Under the pieces are notes generated by a model. It worked only from the letters and a program-made list of their open reading frames with translations, searched no databases and had not been told where the DNA came from. From positions 62,001-126,000 of the forward strand of contig JACPRZ010000063.1 in assembly GCA_016193485.1 (NCBI GenBank): a DNA stretch of 64,000 nt. Reading direction: 5' to 3'. The position numbers and the translations under genes are program-made. This DNA is from Bacteroidota bacterium. GTDB lineage: Bacteria > Bacteroidota > Bacteroidia > JACPRZ01. This document shows positions 4,741 through 42,000 of the stretch, one piece after another; position 1 is the first letter of the stretch, and the number at the start of each line of letters is the position of its first letter.

Positions 4741-4936
4741 AAGTAACACCTTAAAATTCACCACAAATATAAAAAGATTTCCGGAACCGGCAAGATATAC
4801 ATATTTATTTTCCGCATTTTTTGCGGCAAATATATGAATTATTCTCCGCAATCTGTTTTAGACCTGACATCATGGCTGGTTTGAAGAATATTGCTATTTT
4901 TGCTGACTGAATATCAAACCGATAATAACCTCCTTA

Positions 4937-7900
4937 ATGGCCCCCGCGATCTTCAACCGCATTTCCCTTTTCCTTTTCTCTTTTATCATGACGCATTTGG
5001 TCATGATGCTGACAGTAATCGTCAGCATCTTTTTCCTTTTTCCTTCCATATCCCGTTCTCAATGCGCCTACGATAACACCTATTACACAACACCTGCACT
5101 CAGTTGCCCTGGTTCTGCTACTGCCGCCTGCGTTTTTGGAGGCGAATACATTACGGTCAACGTGGTTGCAGGAAATACCTATACCTTCTCCACCTGCGGG
5201 GTTGCCGGATTTGATACCCAACTTACATTGTACCAGTCAGGAGGCGGTGGTTCGCTTGCCTACAGCGATGATGCCTGCGGACTGCAGTCGTCAATCACAT
5301 GGACTGCCACTTTCACCGGGTCAGTTGATGTTCTTCTCGACCAGTATAATTGCTCAAATAACGCAACATGCCAGCCCATAGATATTCAGTGCTCTGCAGG
5401 AGGGAGTCCGATAACTGCCAGTGATTGCTCACAGGCGGTAAATGTCTGTACCGACCTGAATTTTACAATTGACCCGAACGGGTTCGGAACCATTGATGAG
5501 ATCCCGGCTCCCGGTTCCTACTCCAATCCCAATGTAAATCCTACCAGCGGTAATTCCGGGTGCCTCCTCAGCGGTGAAAAAAACTCCACCTGGATGCTCG
5601 TCTATATCAGCGGCACCGGAAATCTCGAATTTACATTTGGAGGTAACGGAACCCAGTCAGGTTATTATGACTGGATCATGTATCAGTGGACTCCAACAAT
5701 TTGCTCCGATATTCCCAATAACATTGCACCTCCGGTGCGCTGCAACTGGAATTGTACAAGTTCCGGTGGTACAGGCCTGGCTTCCACTATTCCGGCAGGT
5801 GGCAGCGCCTGCAATTATGAATCACCTCTTCCGGTAACCTGCGGACAGCAATATGTAATTGTTTTTTCAAACTGGAGTTCGGTCACAACAACCGTTCCGC
5901 TACAGTTCGGAGGAACGGCAACAGTAAGTTGTACTCCTTCTACATTAAATGTAACTGTAACACCGGCATCACCGGTAATTTGTTCCGGTGGCTCGGTCAC
6001 GCTGACCGCCAGTGGCGCAACAACCTATACATGGTCGCCTTCCACCGGGTTAAGTTCCACCATGGGTTCTTCGGTTGTTGCCACTCCTTCATCAACTACA
6101 ACATATACGGTTACAGGCGTCACCGGTTGTGTTCAGGGAACAGCCACGGTCACCGTCACGGTAACACCATCCTTTACCTTGTCAATGTCGCAGGTAAATC
6201 CCTCCTGTACCGGTTCCTGCAACGGCAGCGCAACCGCTACTCCATCCGGAGGAAATCCTGCATTCACCTATTCCTGGAGCGGGGGGGGAGCAACCCAGAC
6301 AAAGACAGGTATGTGCGCTGGGACCTATACAGTAACCGTTACCGATGCATCGGGTTGTATGAATACGGCAACCGTAACAATTACCAATCCTCCTGCCTTA
6401 TCAGTAAGTGTCACACCGGGTAATACAACTTGCCCGGGAGTATGTTCCGGAACACTAAGCGCATCCGGCAGCGGTGGAACGCCTGCCTACACGTACAACT
6501 GGAGCGGAGGACTCGGAAGCGGTCCTTCCAAAACCGGAGTATGCACAGGAACCTACACTGTGACCATCACCGATTCCAAAGGTTGTACTTCAACGGCATC
6601 AGGTATCGTGAATCAGCCGCCTGCAATCAGCGTTACTGTTACTCCAACCAATGAGAGTTGCGATGGAGGATGCAACGGTTCGGTAACGGCAAGCGCATCA
6701 GGAGGTACGGGTGCTCTTACTTACTCATGGTGCTGTGCGTTGGGAACAGGCGCAACCAAATCGGGATTGTGTGACGGAACCTATACAGTGACCGTCACTG
6801 ATGCCAACGGATGTACCGCTACAGGAACCGGAACGGTGAATCCTGGTCCTGTCATTGCAGCCGGCTTTACCTACAACGGTAATCAATGCCTTTCAGGTAA
6901 CTCGTTTAACTTCACTAACACCGGTACAATGGGAGTTACCTATTCATGGTCATTTCCCAGCGGTTCGCCATCTTCATCAACGCTTGAAAATCCATCCGGA
7001 ATAACCTGGAGCAGTGCCGGCTCATATACGGTTACCCAAATCGTAACCTCCGGCAGTTGCATGAATACCGCAACGCTGACCATCACCGTTTACCCGCAGC
7101 CGTCAGTGGCGTTAAGCAAAGCGGATATTACATGCAACGGATTATGCAACGGGACTATCACCGCTAATATTGCATCAGGCACCCCCCCCTTCACTTATTC
7201 CTGGAGCAACGGTTCCATGGGGTCCGGAACCATATCATCCCTTTGCGCTTCATCTTACACCGTAACGGTAACCGATGCCTATGGGTGCAGTGGTGTTGCA
7301 TCGGCAACGATTACACAGCCCCCCCTCTTAACTGTTTCAGTAACTCCCGCGGGTGAATCCTGTGATGGCGCATGCGATGGATCAGTGACAGCAAGCGCTT
7401 CGGGCGGAACCGGCTCGCTGACTTACTCCTGGTGCTGCGCTCTTGGAACCGGAGCAACAAAAACCGGATTATGCGATGGAACTTATACCGTAACAGTTAC
7501 TGATGCCAACGGATGCACAACCACCGGAAGCGCAACTGTAAATCCCGGTCCTGTTATAACAGCGGGTTTCACATACAACGGCAACCAGTGTCTCACCGGC
7601 AACTCTTTTAATTTCACCAACACCGGTACAATGGGAGTTACATATTCCTGGACTTTTCCCAGCGGCACACCTGCAAGTTCAACTGCAGAGAATCCTTCCG
7701 GAATTACCTGGAGCAGCGCTGGTTCCTATACAGTAACGCAAACCGTGACATCCGGAAGTTGCATGAACACCGCAACAGTCACCATAACGGTTTATCCGCA
7801 ACCATCGGTGACAATAAATAAAACAGATATTTCCTGTAACGGCTTATGCAACGGAAGCGCATCGGCAAATATCACATCCGGCACTGCCCCGTTTACTTTC

Positions 7901-10900
7901 TCGTGGAGTAACGGCTCTATGGGAACCGGAACAATTTCATCATTATGCGTTAATACATATACAGTGACTGTTACTGACGGTTTCGGTTGTACTGCAACGG
8001 CAAGCGCAACGATAACCCAACCCGCATTATTAAGTGCAGTAATGAGCAACACCAATGCAACCTGCAATAATGTTTGCAATGCCATGGGTAATGTTACCGT
8101 GAGCGGTGGAACGCCATCCTATACTTATCAGTGGAGTGCCGGTGCCGGTTTTCAAACCACAAGCAGCGCGACAGGATTATGCGATGGAATTTTCAGCGTG
8201 ACGGTGACTGACAGCAAGGGTTGTACCGCAACCGGCAGCGTGACTGTTACGGAACCGGCAGCAATGACCGTCACAGTAACAACTATAAATTCCACCTGCG
8301 GAGCAAGTACGGGCAGCGTAACGGCAACCGTAGGGGGGGGAACTTCTCCTTATACCTATAGTTGGAGCAACGGCTGCATGGGAAGCAACTGCACAAACCT
8401 GCCTGCCGGGAATTACCTGGTTACGGTTACGGATGCCGGTGGCTGCACACAAACGGCAAACGGATCGGTGAATGATGCCGGAGGCATCTCCGCCTCCGTT
8501 GCAACGGATCAGAATATTACCTGTTTTGGTTTATGCAACGGACAGGCAACGGCAACCGTTACCGGTGGGGGAAGTCCCTATACTTATGTGTGGAGCAACG
8601 GCCAAACTGTAACCAGTGCCGGTACCGCCCAGACACAAACGGGGTTATGTGGTGGAAATATCAGTGTAACGGTAACGGATGCCAGCGGTTGCGCCAGCAG
8701 CGGTGCCGGGGTAGTTACGGAACCTGCGTTGCTGACCGGTATTGCAACCGTTACTCCTGAAAGTTGCGGAGGCAGTTGCAACGGAACCATGAGCATTAGT
8801 ATGAGCGGTGGTTTGAACCCGTATACATATTCCTGGCCAGGCGGACCGACAGGGCCGGTGGCAGGCAAGAGCAGTTTATGTGCAGGCACTCTGACCGTTA
8901 CTGTAAGCGATGCCTATGGATGTACGTTAACGGTAAGCGGAACGGTGACTGCTGGCGGCAATATTATTCTTTCGGTAACACCTGCCGATGCAAATTGTAA
9001 TAACGTTTGCACCGGCAGCGCCAATCTTACCGTGACAGGGGGGGGTGTACCGCTCACTTATTTATGGTCAAATACATTCAGCGGTGAAGATCCGTCCGGA
9101 TTGTGTGACGGTACATACACGGTAACTGTCACTGATGCGAACGGTTGCACGGCTTCAACTAACACGACAATTACCGAACCTGCTGCGCTGACCGTATCCC
9201 TGTCATCCACAAATGAATTATGTGACGGACTGTGTGACGGAACAGCAACGGCAACAACTTCCGGTGGCATTCCATCCTATACGTATTCATGGAGCGGTGG
9301 CGGAACCGGCACAACTAAAACCAACTTGTGCGATGGAACATATACTGTCACGGTTACCGATTCAAAAGGATGTACCGTTACCGGAAATGTTACCATCAAT
9401 GCAGGACCGGTTATTACCGCAGGGTTCACGCCATCAGTTAATCAGTGCCTCACCGGAAATTCTTTCAGTTTTACCAATACCGGCACTATGGGCGTTACCT
9501 ATTCCTGGACTTTTCCCAGCGGGACTCCATCCTCATCAGCAATTGAAAACCCGTCAGGAATTTCCTGGAGCAGTGCCGGCACTTATACTATAACACAAAC
9601 CGTTACTTCCGGCAGTTGCATGAATACAGCCACGCTGAACATTACCGTATTTGCTCAACCTTCCGTGACAATAAGTAAATCCGATCTGGTATGCTATAAT
9701 GTTTGCAACGGCAGTATGACGGCAACTGTAAGTTCAGGAACTTCTCCATTCACTTACAATTGGAACACCGGTTGTGCAAGTTCAACATGCAACAGTTTAT
9801 GCACCGGGACTTACACGGTTACCGTGACCGATGCCAAAGGATGTTCTGCAACAGCGAATACCACCATAACCGAACCAGCGGTTCTGACGGTAATTACTTC
9901 TTCAACACCGGCCACATGCGGACAGTCCAACGGAACGGCAACGGCAACTCCTTCGGGCGGTACCGGATCCTATACATATATATGGGATGACCCTGCCCCG
10001 GTTCAGACCACACAGACCGCTGCCGGTCTTGCAGGGGGGGTATATAATGTTACGGTGACCGACAGCAAGGGATGTACTGTGATGGGAAACGTTACCGTTA
10101 ATTCGGTTGCGGGCGGGAACGTTTCGGTATCAATTCTAAGTAACATTACCTGCAACGGATTATGCAACGGCAGCGCCACCGCCACCATGAGCGGAGGCAC
10201 TTCACCGTTTACCTACCAGTGGAATACCATTCCGGCTCAGAATACAGCAACAGCAACCGGGCTTTGCGCAAGTACCTATACCGTCACCGTTACGGATGCA
10301 AGCAGTTGCACGGGAACTGCAAGTATTATTCTTACACAACCGGCTGTTCTTACCGCATCAATCGGTTCAAGTGTTAATCTGTCCTGTTATAATACGTGCA
10401 CCGGATCTATTACAGTAACTGCCGGTGGAGGCACCGGTTCATATTCATATCAATGGAACCCGGTAGTATCTGTGGGAAACAATGCTACAGGACTGTGCGC
10501 AAACACTTTTAACATTACCGTTTCAGACGCCAACGGATGCAGTGCGACCTTGTCGCAAACCCTTACCCAGCCGTCACAACTTACCGTAACAACAAGCGGA
10601 ACAACGGCTTCCTGTTCACAGGTGTGTGACGGAACGAGTTCGGCAACGGCAGGCGGAGGTACCCCCCCCTATTCTTATTCCTGGTCCAACTCTTCCACAG
10701 GCAGCACGGTTACCGGTTTATGCGGTGGATCAAATGTAACGGTCACTGTCACCGACTCAAAAGGATGCACTGCCACCGGTTCATATTCCGTTCCTGTATT
10801 ACCTGATATGCTCATTACAACAACCAGTACCGATGCATCCTGCGGCACGGCCAACGGACAGGTTTCATGCTCGGTTACAAACGGAACAATCCCTTATACA

Positions 10901-13900
10901 TATATATGGAGCAGCGGTTGCATCACATCGTCATGCGCAGGACTCGCGTCCGGAAGTTATACGGTGACTGCAACTGATTCAAAAGGATGTACCGCATCGG
11001 GTACTGCAACGGTTAGTAATATGCTGGGTCCTACGGTAATTTTATCGGGGACAACATCACCCGATTGTTTCGGGAACTGCACGGGGACAGCAACCATAAT
11101 TATCACAGACGGAATCAGCCCTTATACGACTCAATGGAATACTTCACCGCCACAGACATCACTTACCGCAACCGGTCTGTGCGCTGCAACCTATGTTGTC
11201 ACGGTGACCGATGCAAACAATTGCATTGCAACCCTCCCTGCAACAATAACAGAACCGCCACTTTTATCCATCACTTCAACTACGGTTACCGATATAAGTT
11301 GTTACGGCCAGTGCACCGGTTCAATAAACCCGACAATAACGGGTGGAACACCTCCTTATACGTATCAGTGGAACAGCGGGCAAACCATGATACCGGCAAC
11401 CGGACTTTGTACAGGTAATTACAGTTTAACGGTTACGGATTCGGAGGGGTGCACGGCTTCCTCTTCGGCATCAATAACCCAGCCGACACAATTATTTGTG
11501 GTTATTACTTCCGACAGCACCACCTGCTCCGGGCAGTGCAATGGTTCTGCAACCGCTGCAGCAGGGGGGGGAACACCGGCTTATACATATTTGTGGAGCA
11601 ACGGTTCAACGGGTCCTATCGCGGGAAATCTCTGTTCCGGAAATTATTCTGTCACCGTTACCGACAGCAAGGGTTGCACCGCAACAGGAAACGTATCCAT
11701 TTATGATCCATTATCCATTATTGCTTCCATTCCTTCCTGGGGTGATGTAGATTGCTTTGGCAATAATAACGGATGGGCCCAGTCGGCAGCCACGGGAGGA
11801 ACCCCCCCTTATACCTACCTGTGGAGCGACAACCAGACAGGCAACCTCGCTGTAAACCTGGATGGCGAATTAATTATCGTCACTATAACCGATGTAAACG
11901 GGTGTATGGATTCGGCATCCGTGAGCATTTTTGAACCGCCACAACTTATTGTGCTGGTTGTTCCCAATCCTGCAACCTGTTACGGAGTGTGTGACGGATG
12001 GGCAACGGTAGACGTGGTGGGCGGAATACCGGCATATACCTACCTGTGGGATGCCAATGCGCAATTTCAGTCAACCCAGATGGCTACAGGACTTTGTGCG
12101 GATAATTTTACCGTGACGGTCACGGACAACAACGGATGCAGCCAGACCGGTTCAGTTATCATTACTGAACCGCAGCAATTAAGTTTTATTAACGACACCA
12201 TTATCAATTCCACCTGTGGAAATCCCAATGGTGGAGCATGTATCAGCATCATTGGCGGTCTGGCCCCATATACTGCCGCATGGAATACATCGCCTCCTGC
12301 CACAGGGCTTTGCGTTAATAATATTTATGCCGGTGCATACAGCCCTGTAGTTACCGATGGTAACGGATGCTCTTTTACCGCACCGGTCATCATCAACGAT
12401 ATTGCGGGACCAACGATTGATTCGGTTACCGGTATTGACGCTACCTGCAAGGGAGCAAGCGATGGCGCTGTATTCGGTTACTTCTCCGGTGGTACCTCTC
12501 CTTATTCTTACCTGTGGAAAGAAAGCGGAGATACAATTTCTACCGGATTCACATTCGTCCTGGGTGTTCCTGCCGGAACCTATACTTTTACGGTAACAGA
12601 TGACAACGGATGTGTTTCATCCGGTTCGGTTACTATATATGAACCCTCCCTTCTTGTCTCGGCAATCCTGAACGTAACCAATGCTTCATGCAACGGCTAT
12701 TGTGACGGCTCGGTTACGGCAGGCGTAGGGGGGGGAGAATTGCCTTATACATTCACCTGGAATATCACTCCCCAGCAGGACAGCACAACGGCAACAGGGT
12801 TATGTGCCGGTACATATAATATTGTCATTTCGGATGCCAGCGGGTGTTCAACCACCGAAACGGCTAATGTGAGCGAACCATTGCCTCTTGATATTACTCC
12901 TGCGGTTGACAGCGTGAATTGTGCCGGCAACTGGGACGGCACTATTTCGCTTATTCCTTCCCCGACCGGAGGAACCGGTCCTTACTCCATCACATGGCTT
13001 CCCCCGGGTTTCGGAACCGGTCCGGTTATCACCAACCTCCCTGCTGCAACCTATACCTGTATTGTCACGGATTCCAAAAATTGTTCGTTGTCCGAAGATA
13101 TTTCTGTCGGTCAGCCTGCGCCTCTGCTGATAGCCACAACGGCAGTAGATGCAAAATGCGGCAACGCTGACGGCAGCGCTGCTGTTTTTCCCACAGGCGG
13201 AACTCCCGCATATACTCTACTGTGGATTCCCGGAGGTTATACAACGCCTATCGTAAACGGATTACCGAGTGGAAATTATACTGTTTACCTTTCCGATAAA
13301 AACGGCTGCACCGATGTGGATACCGTTACCGTGAATAACATTCCCGGTCCGGAAATTAATTTACTGCCGGTAACCCATAATTTATGTTATGGCGCATTAA
13401 AAGGAATTGCAGCGGTGAATTTTATTTCTTCCGGAACACCTCCCTATTCTTTTACCTGGAATCCCGCTTCCCCCGATAATGATACGGCTTTTCAACTGCC
13501 TTCGGGCCCGGTTATTGTCACGGTAACCGATTTCAACTCATGTACGGATATTGATACCACTTATTTAACCCAGCCCGCTCCGCTGTCAATAACGATCACC
13601 CCGGACAAAACCATCTGTTATGGTCAAAGTACTTTGCTTTCAGTATCCATGTCAGGAGGAACGCCTCAGTTTACATATTCCTGGGATAACTCTCTTCCAC
13701 CGGCTGCGACTCAAACAGTTACTCCTAATGTGACTACAACTTATAATGTAACAATAACCGATCAGAACGGCTGCCAGTCCGATTCCTTTGTTATTGTAAC
13801 GGTTCTCCCCCCCCTCGATTTAGACAGCCAGGTTGTGAGTATCTGTTACGGAGAAAATGCCGTATTTACGGCAACGGCAACCGGAGGAGACGGAGGACCA

Positions 13901-14863
13901 TATACCTATGTATGGGAAAACGGACAACCGGGCAGCCAGTTTACAATCATTGTGCCTCCGGTTAATGATACCATTTACGCTTATGTAATGGACGGATGTT
14001 CAAAAAATGATACCGCTAAATTTTATGCATTTGTAAACCCTCTGCCTGTGGCTGCATTTTCCGCATCGGCATTTGCCGGGTGCCTGCCGTTCCCGGTTAC
14101 ATTTACCGACATGTCAACGGTGAACCAGGGCTCCATCGTTTCGTGGGACTGGGATTTCGGTGACTTAATCGGTTCTTCGCTTCAGAATCCTACGCACACC
14201 TATACTTCCCAGGGAACCTTTGACGTATCGCTTATTGTCACTACCAATGCCGGATGCAGGGATACTGTCATTATCAATTCTCTTGTTTCAGTATATCCGG
14301 TACCTGATGCATTTTTCACGGCAAAACCCGATCTTACCACTCTCATAAACGCAACAATTCAATTTGATGACGGCTCTGCCATTGCAAGCCCTGGGATCAT
14401 TGTTACCTGGTCGTGGGATTTCGGTGACCCGGATGCGCCTGACACATCGCAGACATCATTACTTCAGAACCCGCAACACACCTATACCGATACCGGTGTT
14501 TTTATTATTACATTAACAGTAACGAGCGATAACGGTTGTACCGATATTTATGTGGATAGCGTGGAGATTGAAAACGAGTATATACTTTTTGTACCGAACG
14601 CAATCACCCCTGACGGTGACGGCCATAACGATTATTTTTTCCCTGAAGTAATCGGGTTGCGCGAAGATCGCTTTGAGATGTACATCTTTGACCGGTGGGG
14701 TGACCTTATCTATGAGACAAAAGATATCAACAAGCCGTGGAACGGACGCGCCAACAAAGGCAACATACTTGTACAGCAGGATGTTTATGTGTGGCTTATA
14801 AAAACCGAAGACCTCAACGGAGTGGATCATCGGTATATCGGGCATGTATCAGTGATAAAATAG
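4937..14863 (+). CDS. Giant (3308 aa) SprB-repeat adhesin with PKD domains and T9SS type B C-terminal sorting domain
   Basis: N-terminal signal peptide; more than 25 SprB-type repeats (C.G.C.G......GG..PYTY.WS......GLC.GTYTVTVTD..GC); PKD motifs SWDWDFGD and TWSWDFGD; C-terminus FVPNAITPDGDGHNDYFFPEV...MYIFDRWGDLIYE...PWNGRANKG...YVWLI. Confidence 0.93.
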   Translation: MAPAIFNRISLFLFSFIMTHLVMMLTVIVSIFFLFPSISRSQCAYDNTYYTTPALSCPGSATAACVFGGEYITVNVVAGNTYTFSTCGVAGFDTQLTLYQSGGGGSLAYSDDACGLQSSITWTATFTGSVDVLLDQYNCSNNATCQPIDIQCSAGGSPITASDCSQAVNVCTDLNFTIDPNGFGTIDEIPAPGSYSNPNVNPTSGNSGCLLSGEKNSTWMLVYISGTGNLEFTFGGNGTQSGYYDWIMYQWTPTICSDIPNNIAPPVRCNWNCTSSGGTGLASTIPAGGSACNYESPLPVTCGQQYVIVFSNWSSVTTTVPLQFGGTATVSCTPSTLNVTVTPASPVICSGGSVTLTASGATTYTWSPSTGLSSTMGSSVVATPSSTTTYTVTGVTGCVQGTATVTVTVTPSFTLSMSQVNPSCTGSCNGSATATPSGGNPAFTYSWSGGGATQTKTGMCAGTYTVTVTDASGCMNTATVTITNPPALSVSVTPGNTTCPGVCSGTLSASGSGGTPAYTYNWSGGLGSGPSKTGVCTGTYTVTITDSKGCTSTASGIVNQPPAISVTVTPTNESCDGGCNGSVTASASGGTGALTYSWCCALGTGATKSGLCDGTYTVTVTDANGCTATGTGTVNPGPVIAAGFTYNGNQCLSGNSFNFTNTGTMGVTYSWSFPSGSPSSSTLENPSGITWSSAGSYTVTQIVTSGSCMNTATLTITVYPQPSVALSKADITCNGLCNGTITANIASGTPPFTYSWSNGSMGSGTISSLCASSYTVTVTDAYGCSGVASATITQPPLLTVSVTPAGESCDGACDGSVTASASGGTGSLTYSWCCALGTGATKTGLCDGTYTVTVTDANGCTTTGSATVNPGPVITAGFTYNGNQCLTGNSFNFTNTGTMGVTYSWTFPSGTPASSTAENPSGITWSSAGSYTVTQTVTSGSCMNTATVTITVYPQPSVTINKTDISCNGLCNGSASANITSGTAPFTFSWSNGSMGTGTISSLCVNTYTVTVTDGFGCTATASATITQPALLSAVMSNTNATCNNVCNAMGNVTVSGGTPSYTYQWSAGAGFQTTSSATGLCDGIFSVTVTDSKGCTATGSVTVTEPAAMTVTVTTINSTCGASTGSVTATVGGGTSPYTYSWSNGCMGSNCTNLPAGNYLVTVTDAGGCTQTANGSVNDAGGISASVATDQNITCFGLCNGQATATVTGGGSPYTYVWSNGQTVTSAGTAQTQTGLCGGNISVTVTDASGCASSGAGVVTEPALLTGIATVTPESCGGSCNGTMSISMSGGLNPYTYSWPGGPTGPVAGKSSLCAGTLTVTVSDAYGCTLTVSGTVTAGGNIILSVTPADANCNNVCTGSANLTVTGGGVPLTYLWSNTFSGEDPSGLCDGTYTVTVTDANGCTASTNTTITEPAALTVSLSSTNELCDGLCDGTATATTSGGIPSYTYSWSGGGTGTTKTNLCDGTYTVTVTDSKGCTVTGNVTINAGPVITAGFTPSVNQCLTGNSFSFTNTGTMGVTYSWTFPSGTPSSSAIENPSGISWSSAGTYTITQTVTSGSCMNTATLNITVFAQPSVTISKSDLVCYNVCNGSMTATVSSGTSPFTYNWNTGCASSTCNSLCTGTYTVTVTDAKGCSATANTTITEPAVLTVITSSTPATCGQSNGTATATPSGGTGSYTYIWDDPAPVQTTQTAAGLAGGVYNVTVTDSKGCTVMGNVTVNSVAGGNVSVSILSNITCNGLCNGSATATMSGGTSPFTYQWNTIPAQNTATATGLCASTYTVTVTDASSCTGTASIILTQPAVLTASIGSSVNLSCYNTCTGSITVTAGGGTGSYSYQWNPVVSVGNNATGLCANTFNITVSDANGCSATLSQTLTQPSQLTVTTSGTTASCSQVCDGTSSATAGGGTPPYSYSWSNSSTGSTVTGLCGGSNVTVTVTDSKGCTATGSYSVPVLPDMLITTTSTDASCGTANGQVSCSVTNGTIPYTYIWSSGCITSSCAGLASGSYTVTATDSKGCTASGTATVSNMLGPTVILSGTTSPDCFGNCTGTATIIITDGISPYTTQWNTSPPQTSLTATGLCAATYVVTVTDANNCIATLPATITEPPLLSITSTTVTDISCYGQCTGSINPTITGGTPPYTYQWNSGQTMIPATGLCTGNYSLTVTDSEGCTASSSASITQPTQLFVVITSDSTTCSGQCNGSATAAAGGGTPAYTYLWSNGSTGPIAGNLCSGNYSVTVTDSKGCTATGNVSIYDPLSIIASIPSWGDVDCFGNNNGWAQSAATGGTPPYTYLWSDNQTGNLAVNLDGELIIVTITDVNGCMDSASVSIFEPPQLIVLVVPNPATCYGVCDGWATVDVVGGIPAYTYLWDANAQFQSTQMATGLCADNFTVTVTDNNGCSQTGSVIITEPQQLSFINDTIINSTCGNPNGGACISIIGGLAPYTAAWNTSPPATGLCVNNIYAGAYSPVVTDGNGCSFTAPVIINDIAGPTIDSVTGIDATCKGASDGAVFGYFSGGTSPYSYLWKESGDTISTGFTFVLGVPAGTYTFTVTDDNGCVSSGSVTIYEPSLLVSAILNVTNASCNGYCDGSVTAGVGGGELPYTFTWNITPQQDSTTATGLCAGTYNIVISDASGCSTTETANVSEPLPLDITPAVDSVNCAGNWDGTISLIPSPTGGTGPYSITWLPPGFGTGPVITNLPAATYTCIVTDSKNCSLSEDISVGQPAPLLIATTAVDAKCGNADGSAAVFPTGGTPAYTLLWIPGGYTTPIVNGLPSGNYTVYLSDKNGCTDVDTVTVNNIPGPEINLLPVTHNLCYGALKGIAAVNFISSGTPPYSFTWNPASPDNDTAFQLPSGPVIVTVTDFNSCTDIDTTYLTQPAPLSITITPDKTICYGQSTLLSVSMSGGTPQFTYSWDNSLPPAATQTVTPNVTTTYNVTITDQNGCQSDSFVIVTVLPPLDLDSQVVSICYGENAVFTATATGGDGGPYTYVWENGQPGSQFTIIVPPVNDTIYAYVMDGCSKNDTAKFYAFVNPLPVAAFSASAFAGCLPFPVTFTDMSTVNQGSIVSWDWDFGDLIGSSLQNPTHTYTSQGTFDVSLIVTTNAGCRDTVIINSLVSVYPVPDAFFTAKPDLTTLINATIQFDDGSAIASPGIIVTWSWDFGDPDAPDTSQTSLLQNPQHTYTDTGVFIITLTVTSDNGCTDIYVDSVEIENEYILFVPNAITPDGDGHNDYFFPEVIGLREDRFEMYIFDRWGDLIYETKDINKPWNGRANKGNILVQQDVYVWLIKTEDLNGVDHRYIGHVSVIK

Positions 14864-25613: not shown

Positions 25614-25676
25614 AGGTCTAAGGCATAGGGTATAGGGAATTTCCTTATACCTTATACCTAAATTTCTTATTTCCTT
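25614..25676. repeat. Degenerate heptamer array with internal strand symmetry in a convergent intergenic gap
   Basis: AGGTCTA|AGGCATA|GGGTATA|GGGAATT|TCCTTAT|ACCTTAT|ACCTAAA|TTTCTTA|TTTCCTT. Confidence 0.8.
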
Positions 25677-25920
25677 ATTTCCCCTGCTTCTTTTTCTTAC
25701 CTTTTTCCTTTTTAGCCGCCATTTTCTTCTTTGTATAACTTATCGCCTGCTTCAACGGCACTTTCTTTTCCTGGTTAATCGCAACAACAAAGGGTGATGG
25801 AACATTCATTGCTGCAAGGGTGTCGCGGTATGACTTTGCGGCATCATAATTATCAAACCTGCCGGCCGTCATGAGGGTAAGTTCCCCCTGCCGGAACTCT
25901 TTTATGCCCTCAATTTTCAT
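25675..25920 (-). CDS. C-terminal SPOR-like fragment; probably the 3' part of the gene at 25917-26798 (see findings)
   Basis: MKIEGIKEFRQGELTLMTAGRFDNYDAAKSYRDTLAAMNVPSPFVVAINQEKKVPLKQAI has the form of the second half of a SPOR module; ATGA overlap with the upstream ORF stop. Confidence 0.6.
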   Translation of the reverse strand: MKIEGIKEFRQGELTLMTAGRFDNYDAAKSYRDTLAAMNVPSPFVVAINQEKKVPLKQAISYTKKKMAAKKEKGKKKKQGK

Positions 25921-26798
25921 GTATAATTCCACGAGGGAAATGGGTATGGAATCACGGAATGCCCCCTGCCTTCCAGCGGTTTGTTTACCGGCTGGTCATC
26001 AACCGTGGTAACCTGCTCGGAATACCTTGATTCATGGTTTACGTCAACGATAAATGCATCTTTATATCCTTTTTCCAATACCGCTTTTTTCAGCGCTTCC
26101 GCCTGTGAACGCAGAGAAAAATGGCCAATCACATAACGTATCATTCCCCCCCTGTCCATATAAGCGTCTACATTTTTAAGATTATCAAATTCCCACAGGG
26201 GAATAAATTTTGAGTACGCTCCAACCTGCACTCCCCACAGCGGTGAAAGCGTGGTATAATCCACCCCTTTTGTAAGAATCTTATGATACTCAGGCAGGAT
26301 TGTATTGAACGAAACCCGGTTTTTGCGGGCACATGAATCAATCCAGTTGCCGGCTTCATGTATGTAATAATCCTCCTTGTCAATTCCGTAGAGCGACTGG
26401 AATTTTTTAAACGCCTTCAGTCCGTCTTCGCAGTGATCGTTGAGCGAATAGGCAAGTGAAAGATAAAACCAGGTGAAAATGGGCGTATTGCGTTCATGCG
26501 GGGAGCCCGGGTCGTAGTCGGTTCTTACAAACGGCAATCCAGACTCAAGTAATGTTATTGAAAGAGTATCGGGAACTGAATCGAGCAAATGACAGACCCC
26601 CAGCAGGTATCGCATGTTGGCATTGACCGAATCCATCCGGTTCAGTTTTTCAAACATCGGTAAAGCCCGTGAAACATCTCCTTTTGCAAGGCGGTCTTTG
26701 GCAAGAAAAAAGAGTTCATCAAACTGGAATGATACTTGGGAAAAAATATTATTCAGGTGAAGAAAAGAAAAGAGGCAGAAAAATAAGATGGAGCGCAT
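25917..26798 (-). CDS. TPR-like and SPOR-domain periplasmic protein (apparently truncated by a frameshift)
   Basis: Signal peptide; TPR-like N-terminal part (LAKGDVSRALPMFEKLNRMDSVNANMRYLLGVCHL); SPOR-like LWGVQVGAYSKFIPLWEFDNLKNVDAYMDRGGMIRYVIGHFSLRSQAEALKKAVLEKGYKDAFIVDV. Confidence 0.7.
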   Translation of the reverse strand: MRSILFFCLFSFLHLNNIFSQVSFQFDELFFLAKDRLAKGDVSRALPMFEKLNRMDSVNANMRYLLGVCHLLDSVPDTLSITLLESGLPFVRTDYDPGSPHERNTPIFTWFYLSLAYSLNDHCEDGLKAFKKFQSLYGIDKEDYYIHEAGNWIDSCARKNRVSFNTILPEYHKILTKGVDYTTLSPLWGVQVGAYSKFIPLWEFDNLKNVDAYMDRGGMIRYVIGHFSLRSQAEALKKAVLEKGYKDAFIVDVNHESRYSEQVTTVDDQPVNKPLEGRGHSVIPYPFPSWNYT

Positions 26799-26858: not shown

Positions 26859-29800
26859 TTATCGCCCATGGCAATGCTTAAACTTTTTCCCGCTGCCGCA
26901 GGGGCATGGATCATTCCTGCCGGCTTTTTTTTCAACCCGGACAGGTTGGGCGGCACGCTGCTGCCCGGTATTCGCCTGCTCGGTCATTTGCGGTCTTTGA
27001 TCGGGATGTGGCGCGCGGCCGGTATGCAACCCGCTCATGTCGGTCCTGCGTGGCGCCTGCGCCTGGTTTACCTGCTGCCTTCCGTCAGAGCCGGGAATAT
27101 CCCCCTTAAAAAGGAAAGAGATCACATCGCGGTTGATTTTCATCATCATCGCCTTGAAGAGGTTGAACGCCTCAAATTTATAGATCAGCAATGGGTCTTT
27201 TTGTTCATATACCGCACCATGCACCGATTGCCGCAGGTCATCCATTTCGCGCAGGTGTTCTTTCCAGATGTCGTCAATTATAGCCAGCGATACGGTTTTT
27301 TCAAAAGCGGAAAACACTTCTTTACCGCCTGATTCGTAACTTTTTTTCAGGTTGGCAACTACCTGTATCATGCGTAAACCGTCACTGAATGGAACGACAA
27401 TGTTTTCAAATTTAGATCCCTCGGTTTCAAAAACATTTTTAAGAACGGGGTACGCTTTTTCAGCGGTAAATTGCGATTTGTTGCGGTAATGGGTTACGGC
27501 TTCAGAAAAAACTTTTTCAGTCAGTTCCCCGACATTCTGCCGCATAAAATCCGTTTCACCGGCTCCTGATTCCATAGCGCAGTTTTTCAACAGTTCCAGT
27601 TGGAAACCATTATAGTCCCTTTCCTGCTGAAAGGCGGTTGTAATATTTTCAATAAGGTCATAAAGCATTGTGATAATATCAAGTGTGAGCCGTTCGCCAT
27701 AAAGCGCATGTTTGCGTTTGGAATAGATGGCTTCGCGCTGGATGTTCATCACATCGTCATATTCCAGCAGCCGTTTGCGTTGGCCGAAATTATTTTCCTC
27801 CACTTTTTTCTGTGCACGTTCAATGGAACGGGTGATGAGCGAATGTTGGATAACCTCACCTTCCGGTACTTTCAGGCGGTCCATCCATCGTGCAATGCGG
27901 TCTGATCCGAAGAGACGCATCAGGTCATCTTCCAGCGAAACAAAAAACTGGGATGTTCCCGGATCGCCCTGCCTGCCCGCCCGCCCGCGTAATTGCCGGT
28001 CAACCCTGCGCGATTCATGGCGTTCGGTTCCGATGATGGCGAGCCCCCCCGTATCTTTTACACCGGGTCCTAATTTAATATCGGTTCCGCGACCAGCCAT
28101 ATTTGTAGCGATGGTCACGGTTCCCGCTCTGCCGGCCTCGGCAACAATTTCCGCTTCACGCTGGTGCTGCTTTGCATTGAGAACATTATGTTTTATTCCC
28201 CGCATTTTCAACATCCGGCTGAGCAGTTCCGAAACCTCAACCGATGTTGTTCCCACCAGCACCGGTCTGCCGGCTTTTACCAGGTTATTTATTTCTTCTA
28301 TGACGGCATTATATTTTTCCCTCTTGGTTTTATAAACGAGATCTTCATTGTCTTTCCGGACACAGGATAAATTGGTGGGCACGACTACCACATCAAGTTT
28401 GTAAATATTCCAGAATTCACCGGCTTCGGTTTCGGCTGTGCCGGTCATGCCCGCAAGTTTTTTGTACATGCGGAAATAGTTCTGCAGCGTGATGGTGGCG
28501 TAGGTCTGGGTGGCGGCTTCGACTTTAACGTTTTCTTTTGCCTCTATTGCCTGGTGTAATCCGTCAGAATACCTCCGGCCTTCCATGATGCGGCCTGTTT
28601 GTTCGTCAACAATTTTTACTTTGCCGTCAAGAATAACGTATTCATCATCTTTTTCAAACAGGGTATATGCTTTTACCAGTTGATGGAGAGAATGTATCCG
28701 TTCGCCTTTTACCGAAAAATCGCGCATCAGTTCATCTTTCTTCATCAATTTTTCTTTATCGGTAATTGCTGTTTTTTCAATTTCCGCAATTTTCACACCG
28801 ATATCCGGCAGAACAAAAAAGTGCGGATCTTCACCGGATGCGGTTATCAGTTCAATTCCTTTATCGGTAAGTTCCACCGAATTGTTTTTTTCATCAATAA
28901 CGAAGAATAGTTCTGAATCCGCCTTCGGCATTTCACGCGAATTGTCCTGCAGGTAAAAATTTTCGGTCTTTTGCATAAGGGTTTTATTCCCTGTTTCGCT
29001 GAGTAATTTTATCAGCGCTTTATTCCTGGGAAGACCGCGGTGAGACCGGAAAAGCGGAAGTCCTGCATTTTTCTCATCGCCTTTTTCAAGCATTTGCCTC
29101 GCTTCATTGAGAATTTTGTTCACATAATTTTTTTGCGCGGAAATCAATTTCTCCACACGCGGCTTCATATCATAAAATAACTGCTTGTCATCTTTCCCGG
29201 TGGGACCGGAAATAATCAGCGGAGTGCGCGCATCATCAATCAGCACTGAATCCACTTCGTCAACGATAGCGTAAAAATGTCCTCTCTGCACCAGTTCAAT
29301 GGTTTCACGCACCATGTTGTCGCGCAGGTAATCAAAACCGAATTCGCTGTTTGTTCCGTAGGTTATGTCGGAAAGGTAGGCGTTGCGCCTTCCCGGAGAA
29401 TGGGGTTCATATTTGTCTATGCAGTCAACCGTGAGCATGAGAAATTCATAGATGGGACCCATCCACTCCTGGTCACGCTTGGACAAGTAATCGTTGACGG
29501 TTACCAGGTGGCACCCCTTCCCGGCAAGAGCGTTAAGATAAAGCGGCAGGGTAGCAACAAGCGTCTTGCCTTCACCGGTCGCCATCTCCGATATTTTACC
29601 CTGGTGCAGAACTACTCCCCCCATAAGTTGTACGTCATAATGCACCATATCCCAGGTAATTTTATTGCCACCGGCAACCCATGAGTTGCTCCAGACGGTG
29701 CGGCTTTCATTTACCGAGACATACGATTTTTTTAATGCGAGATTCTGATCGTGTTCCGTGGTAGTAACAACAAGTGTGGCGTTTTCCTTAAAACGTCTCG

Positions 29801-39035: not shown

Positions 39036-42000
39036 CTATTTCACAATCGTAATATTTCCTTTCCACGTCTTATCGTTGCCGGTGCATTTTATCACGTAAT
39101 AATATGTACCGTGCGGCAACGGTTTCCCGTTAAATTCACCGGCCCAGTCGTTGAGATAACCGTTTTTCTGGTAAACGATATTTCCATAACGGTTAAAGAC
39201 GAGCACATCGCAGGACGGATAAAATTCAATATTATCAATGAACCATTTATCGTTGTATCCGTCTGCATTGGGAGTGATGACATCCATAACGCGCAGTTGG
39301 TAATCGGAAACAACGGTTATCACCACTTCATCGGAATCACGGCAGCCGTCAAGCGTGGTAACAAGCATTTTATAAGTTTGCGTTGCGCGCGGGTCAGCAT
39401 CAGGGTTGCGCAGATTCGGATCGGTAAGGGTTGAATCGGGCGACCAGAAGAAAAAGTAGCCGAAATAACCTCCTGTTCCGTGAAGCGTTGCCACATCACC
39501 TAAACTTATGGTGGTATCCTTTCCTGCACTGGCAACCGGCATCGGGTAGAATGAAACGTAAGTATTATCACTGGAGGTGCAGGGACCATTTACTTCTTCC
39601 CACACAAAAATATAATCACCGGTATTTGAAACCGTGGTCGTTGCTGCGCTGTCGTTCACGTTAGAAAAGGTTGCTGTTCCGCTGCCCGGCATTACGCCCC
39701 ATGTACCTGTTCCCACGCTCGGATTGGCATCAAGAGTGAAAGACAAGCCGCAGGATTTACCGACAATCCCGGCATCTGCTTTTGGCTGTCTCCAGAAAAC
39801 AACCGTAACCGTGTCGGAGTCGGAACATACACCGTTGATTTCAGTCCATTGGTAAATGTAATTCCCGAATACAGTGGCAATAGCAGTGGTTACAGGGGCG
39901 ATATTTCCCCCGAAAGTTGTCGCTCCGGGACCGGTATATTGTGTCCATGTTCCGCTTCCGGCACTTGGAGTGGCGTACAAGGTTGTGGAATTACCGCAGA
40001 TATTGGCGAAAATGCCTGCATCCGAAACCGGCTGCTCGTAAAAGTTAACAGTAACTTCATCGTAAGCAACGCATCCGTTATTGGTTTCCGTCCAACGGAA
40101 AACATAAGTGCCATACTGGTTAACATCTACTACAGAAGACGGAATTGAGGGCGTTGTAAAGGTTGCTATGCCTGCGCCAAAGTTCTGGCTCCACTGGCCG
40201 GTTCCCGTTGAAGCCACTGCGGCAAGAATATTTGTAAGTGCGCATACATTGGCATCAGCACCGGCATAAGGCGTGGGCGCATCCTGGAAAAGAATAGTTA
40301 CAACATTGGAATCGGAACAGGTTACATTTGTTTCTTTCCACTGGAAATCGTAGGTGCCGTAAACAGATACCGTGACATCGGTTGTAAAACTGTTCGGATT
40401 GGTAAATGATGATGTTCCGGGTCCGCTGGCCATGCTCCACTGTCCAATTCCGATGGTGGGGAATGCGGTAAGCGTGAAGGAAAGCGCACAGGCAGTATCA
40501 TCTTGTCCGGCATCTGCTGTCGGCTGCATAAAAAAGTTTACGCTGACATTATCGGATGCCGCGCATAAACCGTTATCTTCCGTCCAGGTGAAAATATAGG
40601 TACCGTACACATCAACCGAAACAATTGCAGCCGGATCATTGGCGCCTGGCGAGAAAAATATATTAGTACCCGGCCCGAAAGAGAGCGACCAGGTGCCGGT
40701 TCCCGTGCTGGGAACAGCCGACATTACATGATCAAGATTACATTCATTTCCGTTCGTGCCGGCATTGGCAAGGGGGGGGTCGCTGAAAATTATGATAACC
40801 TGGTCTGATGCCGTGCATCCGTTATTGTTCACTAACCACTCAAAAGTATAACTGCCCGTAAGGGTGACGGTAACCTCCGTCAGCGGATTGTTGGGGTTGG
40901 TGAAGGTTGAAGTTCCGGTTCCCGACACCTGGCTCCATATACCCAGGCCTATTGAGGGTACGCCATTGAGTTGGTACGTTAATCCGCACAGCGTATCATT
41001 CACACCGGCATCGGCTATGGGGGGGGCAAAGAAATTTACCGTTATATCTTCATAGTCGGAGCACGTTCCGTTTGTCTCGCCCCAGCGGTAAACATAGGTT
41101 CCATATAAAGTTACTGTTACCGTGGCGGCCGGATCATTTGGACCCGGTGAAAACGCGCTTATTCCCGGCCCGAAGATCTGTGTCCAGAATCCATTACCTA
41201 AACTTGGCACAGCGCTGAAGGTAAAATCAAAGTCACATTCGTTTCCCCCTGTACCTCCGTCCGAAACGGGCTGATCATAAAAGTTGACTGTAATTACATC
41301 TGAAGATGAGCATGCGCCATTGGTTTCAGTCCAGGAGAAATCATAAGCGCCAAAAGTTGACACGGTTACATCGGTATTCGGACTGTTCGGGTTGGTAAAT
41401 GCTGAAGTTCCCGGGCCTGCTACCTGCGACCAGGTTCCTGTACCGGCACTCGGTACGGCATTGAAAATAAAATTAAGGCCGCACTGCTCTCCACCGTATC
41501 CGGCATTGGCGCTGGGTTGCTGGTAAAAAGTCACGATAAGTGTGTCGCTTTCAATGCAACTGCCGTTCTGTTCACTCCATTCAAATATATAATTGCCGTA
41601 ATCATTTACGGTGACGGTGGCTGTAGGGCTTAAAGGGCTTGAAAACGTACTGAACCCTGGTCCGAAAAGTTGCTGCCAGTTACCCGTACCTACGCTTGGA
41701 ACGGCATTGAGGTTATAATCAAGGTCACATTCGCTTCCGCTGGGACCTGCATTTGCAGTGGGCGAAGGACTGTCAACGGTCACAGCCACGCTGGCGCAAT
41801 TTGCCGACCATGCTCCTGAGACCGTGTTGTATGCGTGTATATAATATGTACCCGATGAATATGCAGTATAGGTAGAAGCGGATCCGAGCGAGGTTGATGT
41901 TCCACATGAAGTTCCCTGCCAGTACCATACAACGTTAGAAGGCGAAGGAGGGGTTCCTCCCCATGAAATTACCATTGAATCGCAGGTTGAAGCGCCCGCA

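Follow-up and report, generated by a model that had tools for sequence, protein, structure and literature searches.

A probable deletion of about 22 nucleotides, in place of a predicted one-base loss, in a split TPR–SPOR–SPOR gene of a Bacteroidota bacterium

The minus strand of positions 25675-26798 of the window (the whole stretch of 64,000 nucleotides that was analysed) raises the question of how the coding sequence of one SPOR-domain protein came to lie in two different reading frames. The original prediction attributed the split to the loss of one base in a G run, and listed a real mutation, a sequence error, a phase-variable tract and programmed frameshifting as its possible causes. The frame break is present in the given sequence where it had been placed, and the minus-strand sequence, the end of the first open reading frame (ORF1), the GGGGG run and the open -1 frame were all found as described. 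The -1 frame, which begins with GAFRDSIPISLVELYMKIEGIKEF, runs without interruption from GGGGG at 25966-25962 as far as a stop at 25675. The features of the locus are as follows.

26798-25917, minus strand: ORF1, 293 aa, ending in PLEGRGHSVIPYPFPSWNYT and a stop; it consists of a signal-peptide-like N-terminus, a TPR-like helical region, the first SPOR domain and 14 out-of-frame residues (HSVIPYPFPSWNYT) before the stop
26146-26152, minus strand: G7 tract in the first SPOR domain (DRGGM), in frame and with no part in the lesion
25962-25966, minus strand: G5 run (GGGGG), the putative deletion scar and the point where about 22 nt of the orthologues are absent
25675-25961, minus strand: what is left of the second SPOR domain, which has lost its first beta-strand, and a Lys-rich tail; both are read in the -1 frame with respect to ORF1

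The SPOR domain (PF05036) binds peptidoglycan and occurs in proteins of cell division and of the envelope, FtsN and DedD among them. The gene probably encodes an exported envelope protein in which a TPR-like domain at the N-terminus is followed by two SPOR domains in tandem. The likeness to PF05036 is drawn through the orthologues, as the Pfam SPOR model is matched by all 12 of those aligned (at 290-356 in the orthologue L003, for example), whereas neither of the window's own two ORFs reaches E 0.001 against it. When the model of an orthologue was used in a PDB fold search, TPR folds were among the matches listed. The gene is present as a single copy in its own genome, a 4.0-Mb draft of 72 contigs. 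All 12 orthologues have C-termini that match the remnant frame from its AF residues onward (E 8e-20 to 3e-11), and a dicodon frame scan that was blind to the finding called a coding-frame switch at about 25969. For these two reasons, the downstream -1 frame is genuine coding sequence.

Orthologues were gathered by searching relatives and GTDB species, and those found carry one unbroken frame across the junction. The window copy has no such single continuous frame through both SPOR domains; it has a stop after ORF1 and the second domain in the other frame. A profile of 12 orthologues was also run against 395 Bacteroidia genomes, where it identified 60 places in 46 other genomes. Nearly all of these places extend over the full model; a few match just one part of it, and a few contain single stops flagged by the read-through search. 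None of the 60 is split at the window's junction. In the organism's own genome the family alignment is matched only at positions 3-282 (E 3e-88), which correspond to the TPR region and the first SPOR domain. The claim that one gene has been split by a frame disruption therefore holds, as the orthologues are continuous and the remnant matches their C-termini, and the orthologue comparison proposed with it, a continuous ORF against a split at the same point, gave nothing that contradicts the splitting.

The TPR–SPOR–SPOR proteins of Bacteroidia (L003, L004, L032, L005 and others) constitute an unnamed family which is widespread in some Bacteroidia families. They share with the window copy the same domain order, the conserved residues of both SPOR domains and the TPR-like N-terminus. 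Unlike these orthologues, the window copy is split and is without the first strand of the second SPOR domain. The closest orthologues have 45-47% identity to the window copy, the comparison with L003 gives 42% identity over 377 columns, and an order-level search returned the own genome only. A literature search on TPR and SPOR proteins returned nothing on the TPR–SPOR–SPOR family. Adjacency to secA is not conserved in the relatives examined, so the neighbourhood gives no functional hint.

The alignment across the junction indicates a loss larger than one base. Exactly at the junction, between the LxG anchor and GAF, each of the 36 distinct orthologues aligned has some seven further residues that follow the pattern V-x-[FY]-[RK]-[VI]-Q-[VI] or a near variant of it. 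The window reads CTG GAA GGC AGG and then GG GCA TTC at this point, and in comparison with the orthologues seven codons and one base are absent, a net of about 22 nt. In addition, two first-strand motifs ([VI]Q[VIL][GA]A) are present in 36 of 36 distinct continuous orthologues at a modal spacing of 93 residues (range 89-98); the window has the first of these motifs and is without the second. The LxG and GAF anchors give a deletion size of 22 nt and the common motif spacings give 19-25, and both the exact size and the exact ancestral sequence would depend on orthologues which are only about 45% identical. The second SPOR domain has as its first strand residues 289-298 in the AlphaFold model of L003 (mean pLDDT 82), and the missing residues correspond to 289-295 of that strand. 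According to the alignment and this model, the loss of about 22 nt takes most of that strand. Thus the window copy of the TPR–SPOR–SPOR gene very probably carries a net deletion of about 22 bp which shifts the frame, with the G5 run being only its scar. The original prediction had also described the second SPOR-type module as complete and as starting in the GGGGG run. Its coding status stands, and its completeness does not, given that the first strand is missing.

The proposed loss of a single base in the G run, whether by a point indel or by a homopolymer sequencing error, is accordingly very unlikely. It has in its favor that one extra G would make the frame continuous. However, because about 22 nt and not one are missing, the SPOR domain encoded by that frame would still be without a strand found in all 36 of the orthologues. 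A homopolymer error is further opposed by the approximately 290 G/C tracts of at least 7 bases that sit inside long open frames of this genome, which indicate that run lengths are generally read correctly. Programmed -1 frameshifting to give a longer minor product would meet the same difficulty, as that product would also be without the first strand. Judging from the sequence, the G run would allow a GGG in the P site to re-pair. However, the relatives are all continuous here and so have no conserved frameshift site, and no stimulatory RNA structure was found around the site, where folding was no better than in shuffles (z = 0.36). This explanation has almost no probability left to it.

Equally improbable is a phase-variable G tract, in which changes in run length would toggle the second SPOR domain. 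Such a switch would suit a genome with as many G7-G9 tracts as this one, but the run at the junction has only 5 G, and the gain or loss of one or two G cannot supply the missing codons. Since about 22 nt are missing in comparison with the orthologues, no change in tract length would restore the full-length family protein. Tracts of G7 or more also occur in housekeeping genes such as secA, and the frame scan showed no clear switch from tract length alone. A simple one-base loss, phase variation and programmed frameshifting were all rejected because none of them explains the missing sequence. From the list of causes first offered, real mutation and sequence error are retained, now as a real short deletion or a deletion made in assembly, and the other two are discarded. 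One candidate for phase variation or recoding is thereby removed. A scar of about 22 bp mimics a one-base slip because 22 divided by three leaves a remainder of one. As a general caution, orthologues should be aligned across such a junction, rather than asking only whether one base opens the frame.

The deletion of about 22 bp would leave as its expected product the TPR region, the first SPOR domain and a short nonsense tail. It may have occurred by slippage or end-joining at G-rich microhomology. Such a route is plausible because in the family the sequence is G-rich on both sides of the lost segment, the left side having a K/R codon and then GTN or the like, and the right side GGN-GCN. The lesion is judged to be recent, or artificial, because the remnant frame has stayed open and conserved. 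A short frame-shifting deletion with a conserved remnant downstream is likewise seen in pseudogenes that arise when short stretches are deleted between microhomologies. Unlike these, the lesion in the window could be of assembly origin. The split thus reflects either ordinary damage to a gene or a fault of the assembly, rather than a genetic switch.

In order to place the lesion among others, 838 kb of the organism's own genome was sampled and scanned for places where the coding frame switches and leaves a non-coding tail of six codons or more. The scan gave 16 candidates, about six of which were internal to one gene by inspection, including the lesion in the window. For example, a class I/II aminotransferase is split at about 9753-9774 of L057 (plus strand), between APYW and FIINSPSNPSG; one frame covers positions 2-103 of Pfam PF00155 and the following frame covers 149-361, which leaves about 45 positions of the profile unmatched. 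A penicillin-binding-protein-type transglycosylase (PF00912) is split at AGGGGGG at about 6287 of L048 (minus strand; G000:C56:132287), with several residues apparently missing before GGSTITQQL. In a surface-like protein at about 149443 of G000:C40, the sequence of the break would fit a net 8-nt loss at a TTGGCAG direct repeat. Apparent deletion-plus-frameshift genes were also observed in repeat-containing proteins at about 5247 of L051 and about 9148 of L058. The lesion in the window is thus, as far as sequence can tell, one of a small set of short deletions in this genome. A draft assembly with errors would be expected to give the same lesion rate.

An assembly or consensus artefact is a sub-case of the reading in which 22 nt are missing. 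The organism's gene would then be intact, and about 22 bp would have been lost where the assembly joined across a G-rich spot that was polymorphic or had poor coverage. This is a substantial possibility that falls somewhat short of even. The draft is divided into many contigs, two of the roughly six lesions in 838 kb that combine a deletion with a frameshift carry a run of 5-6 G right on the junction, and the remnant reading frame is otherwise undamaged. Several points speak against it. First, about six lesions per 0.84 Mb is not above ordinary bacterial pseudogene rates. Secondly, assemblers seldom join sequences at such short overlaps. Lastly, the genome contains two intact relatives of the broken transglycosylase from the same family, which would make the loss of that gene tolerable. 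A real deletion is favored over an assembly error, at a little over one half.

The G7-G9 tracts of this genome were also characterized. There are 1131 GGGGGGGG words on both strands of the genome, compared to 0-110 in 39 relatives. In 430 long genes, G8 occurs 76 times versus 5.5 in synonymous shuffles (approximately 13-fold) and C8 occurs 75 times versus 7.5; G/C runs of 4-6 are depleted in the same genes, while runs of 7-9 are far commoner than expected. The excess stays when the giant repeat proteins are left out (221 tracts versus a shuffle mean of 48 and maximum of 64). The G/C tracts have no strong strand polarity and no clustering at gene starts. In a previous survey, poly(G) of 7-8 bases was overrepresented in only 9 of 99 prokaryotic genomes (PMC2831843). 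The tract excess would fit either a lineage-specific oligonucleotide signal or a peculiarity of mutation. It is unlikely that a genome rich in such tracts suffers short deletions associated with G runs, with the TPR–SPOR gene being one scar; short deletions in G-rich DNA are known in helicase-deficient eukaryotes. Examples of G7-G9 tracts in the window are found at 28044-28050 (in secA), 26146-26152, 6281-6288, 9038-9045 and 41019-41026. A very long ORF at 4907-14863 (plus strand, about 3300 codons) contains 11 G/C tracts of 7-8 bases in its repeated domains.
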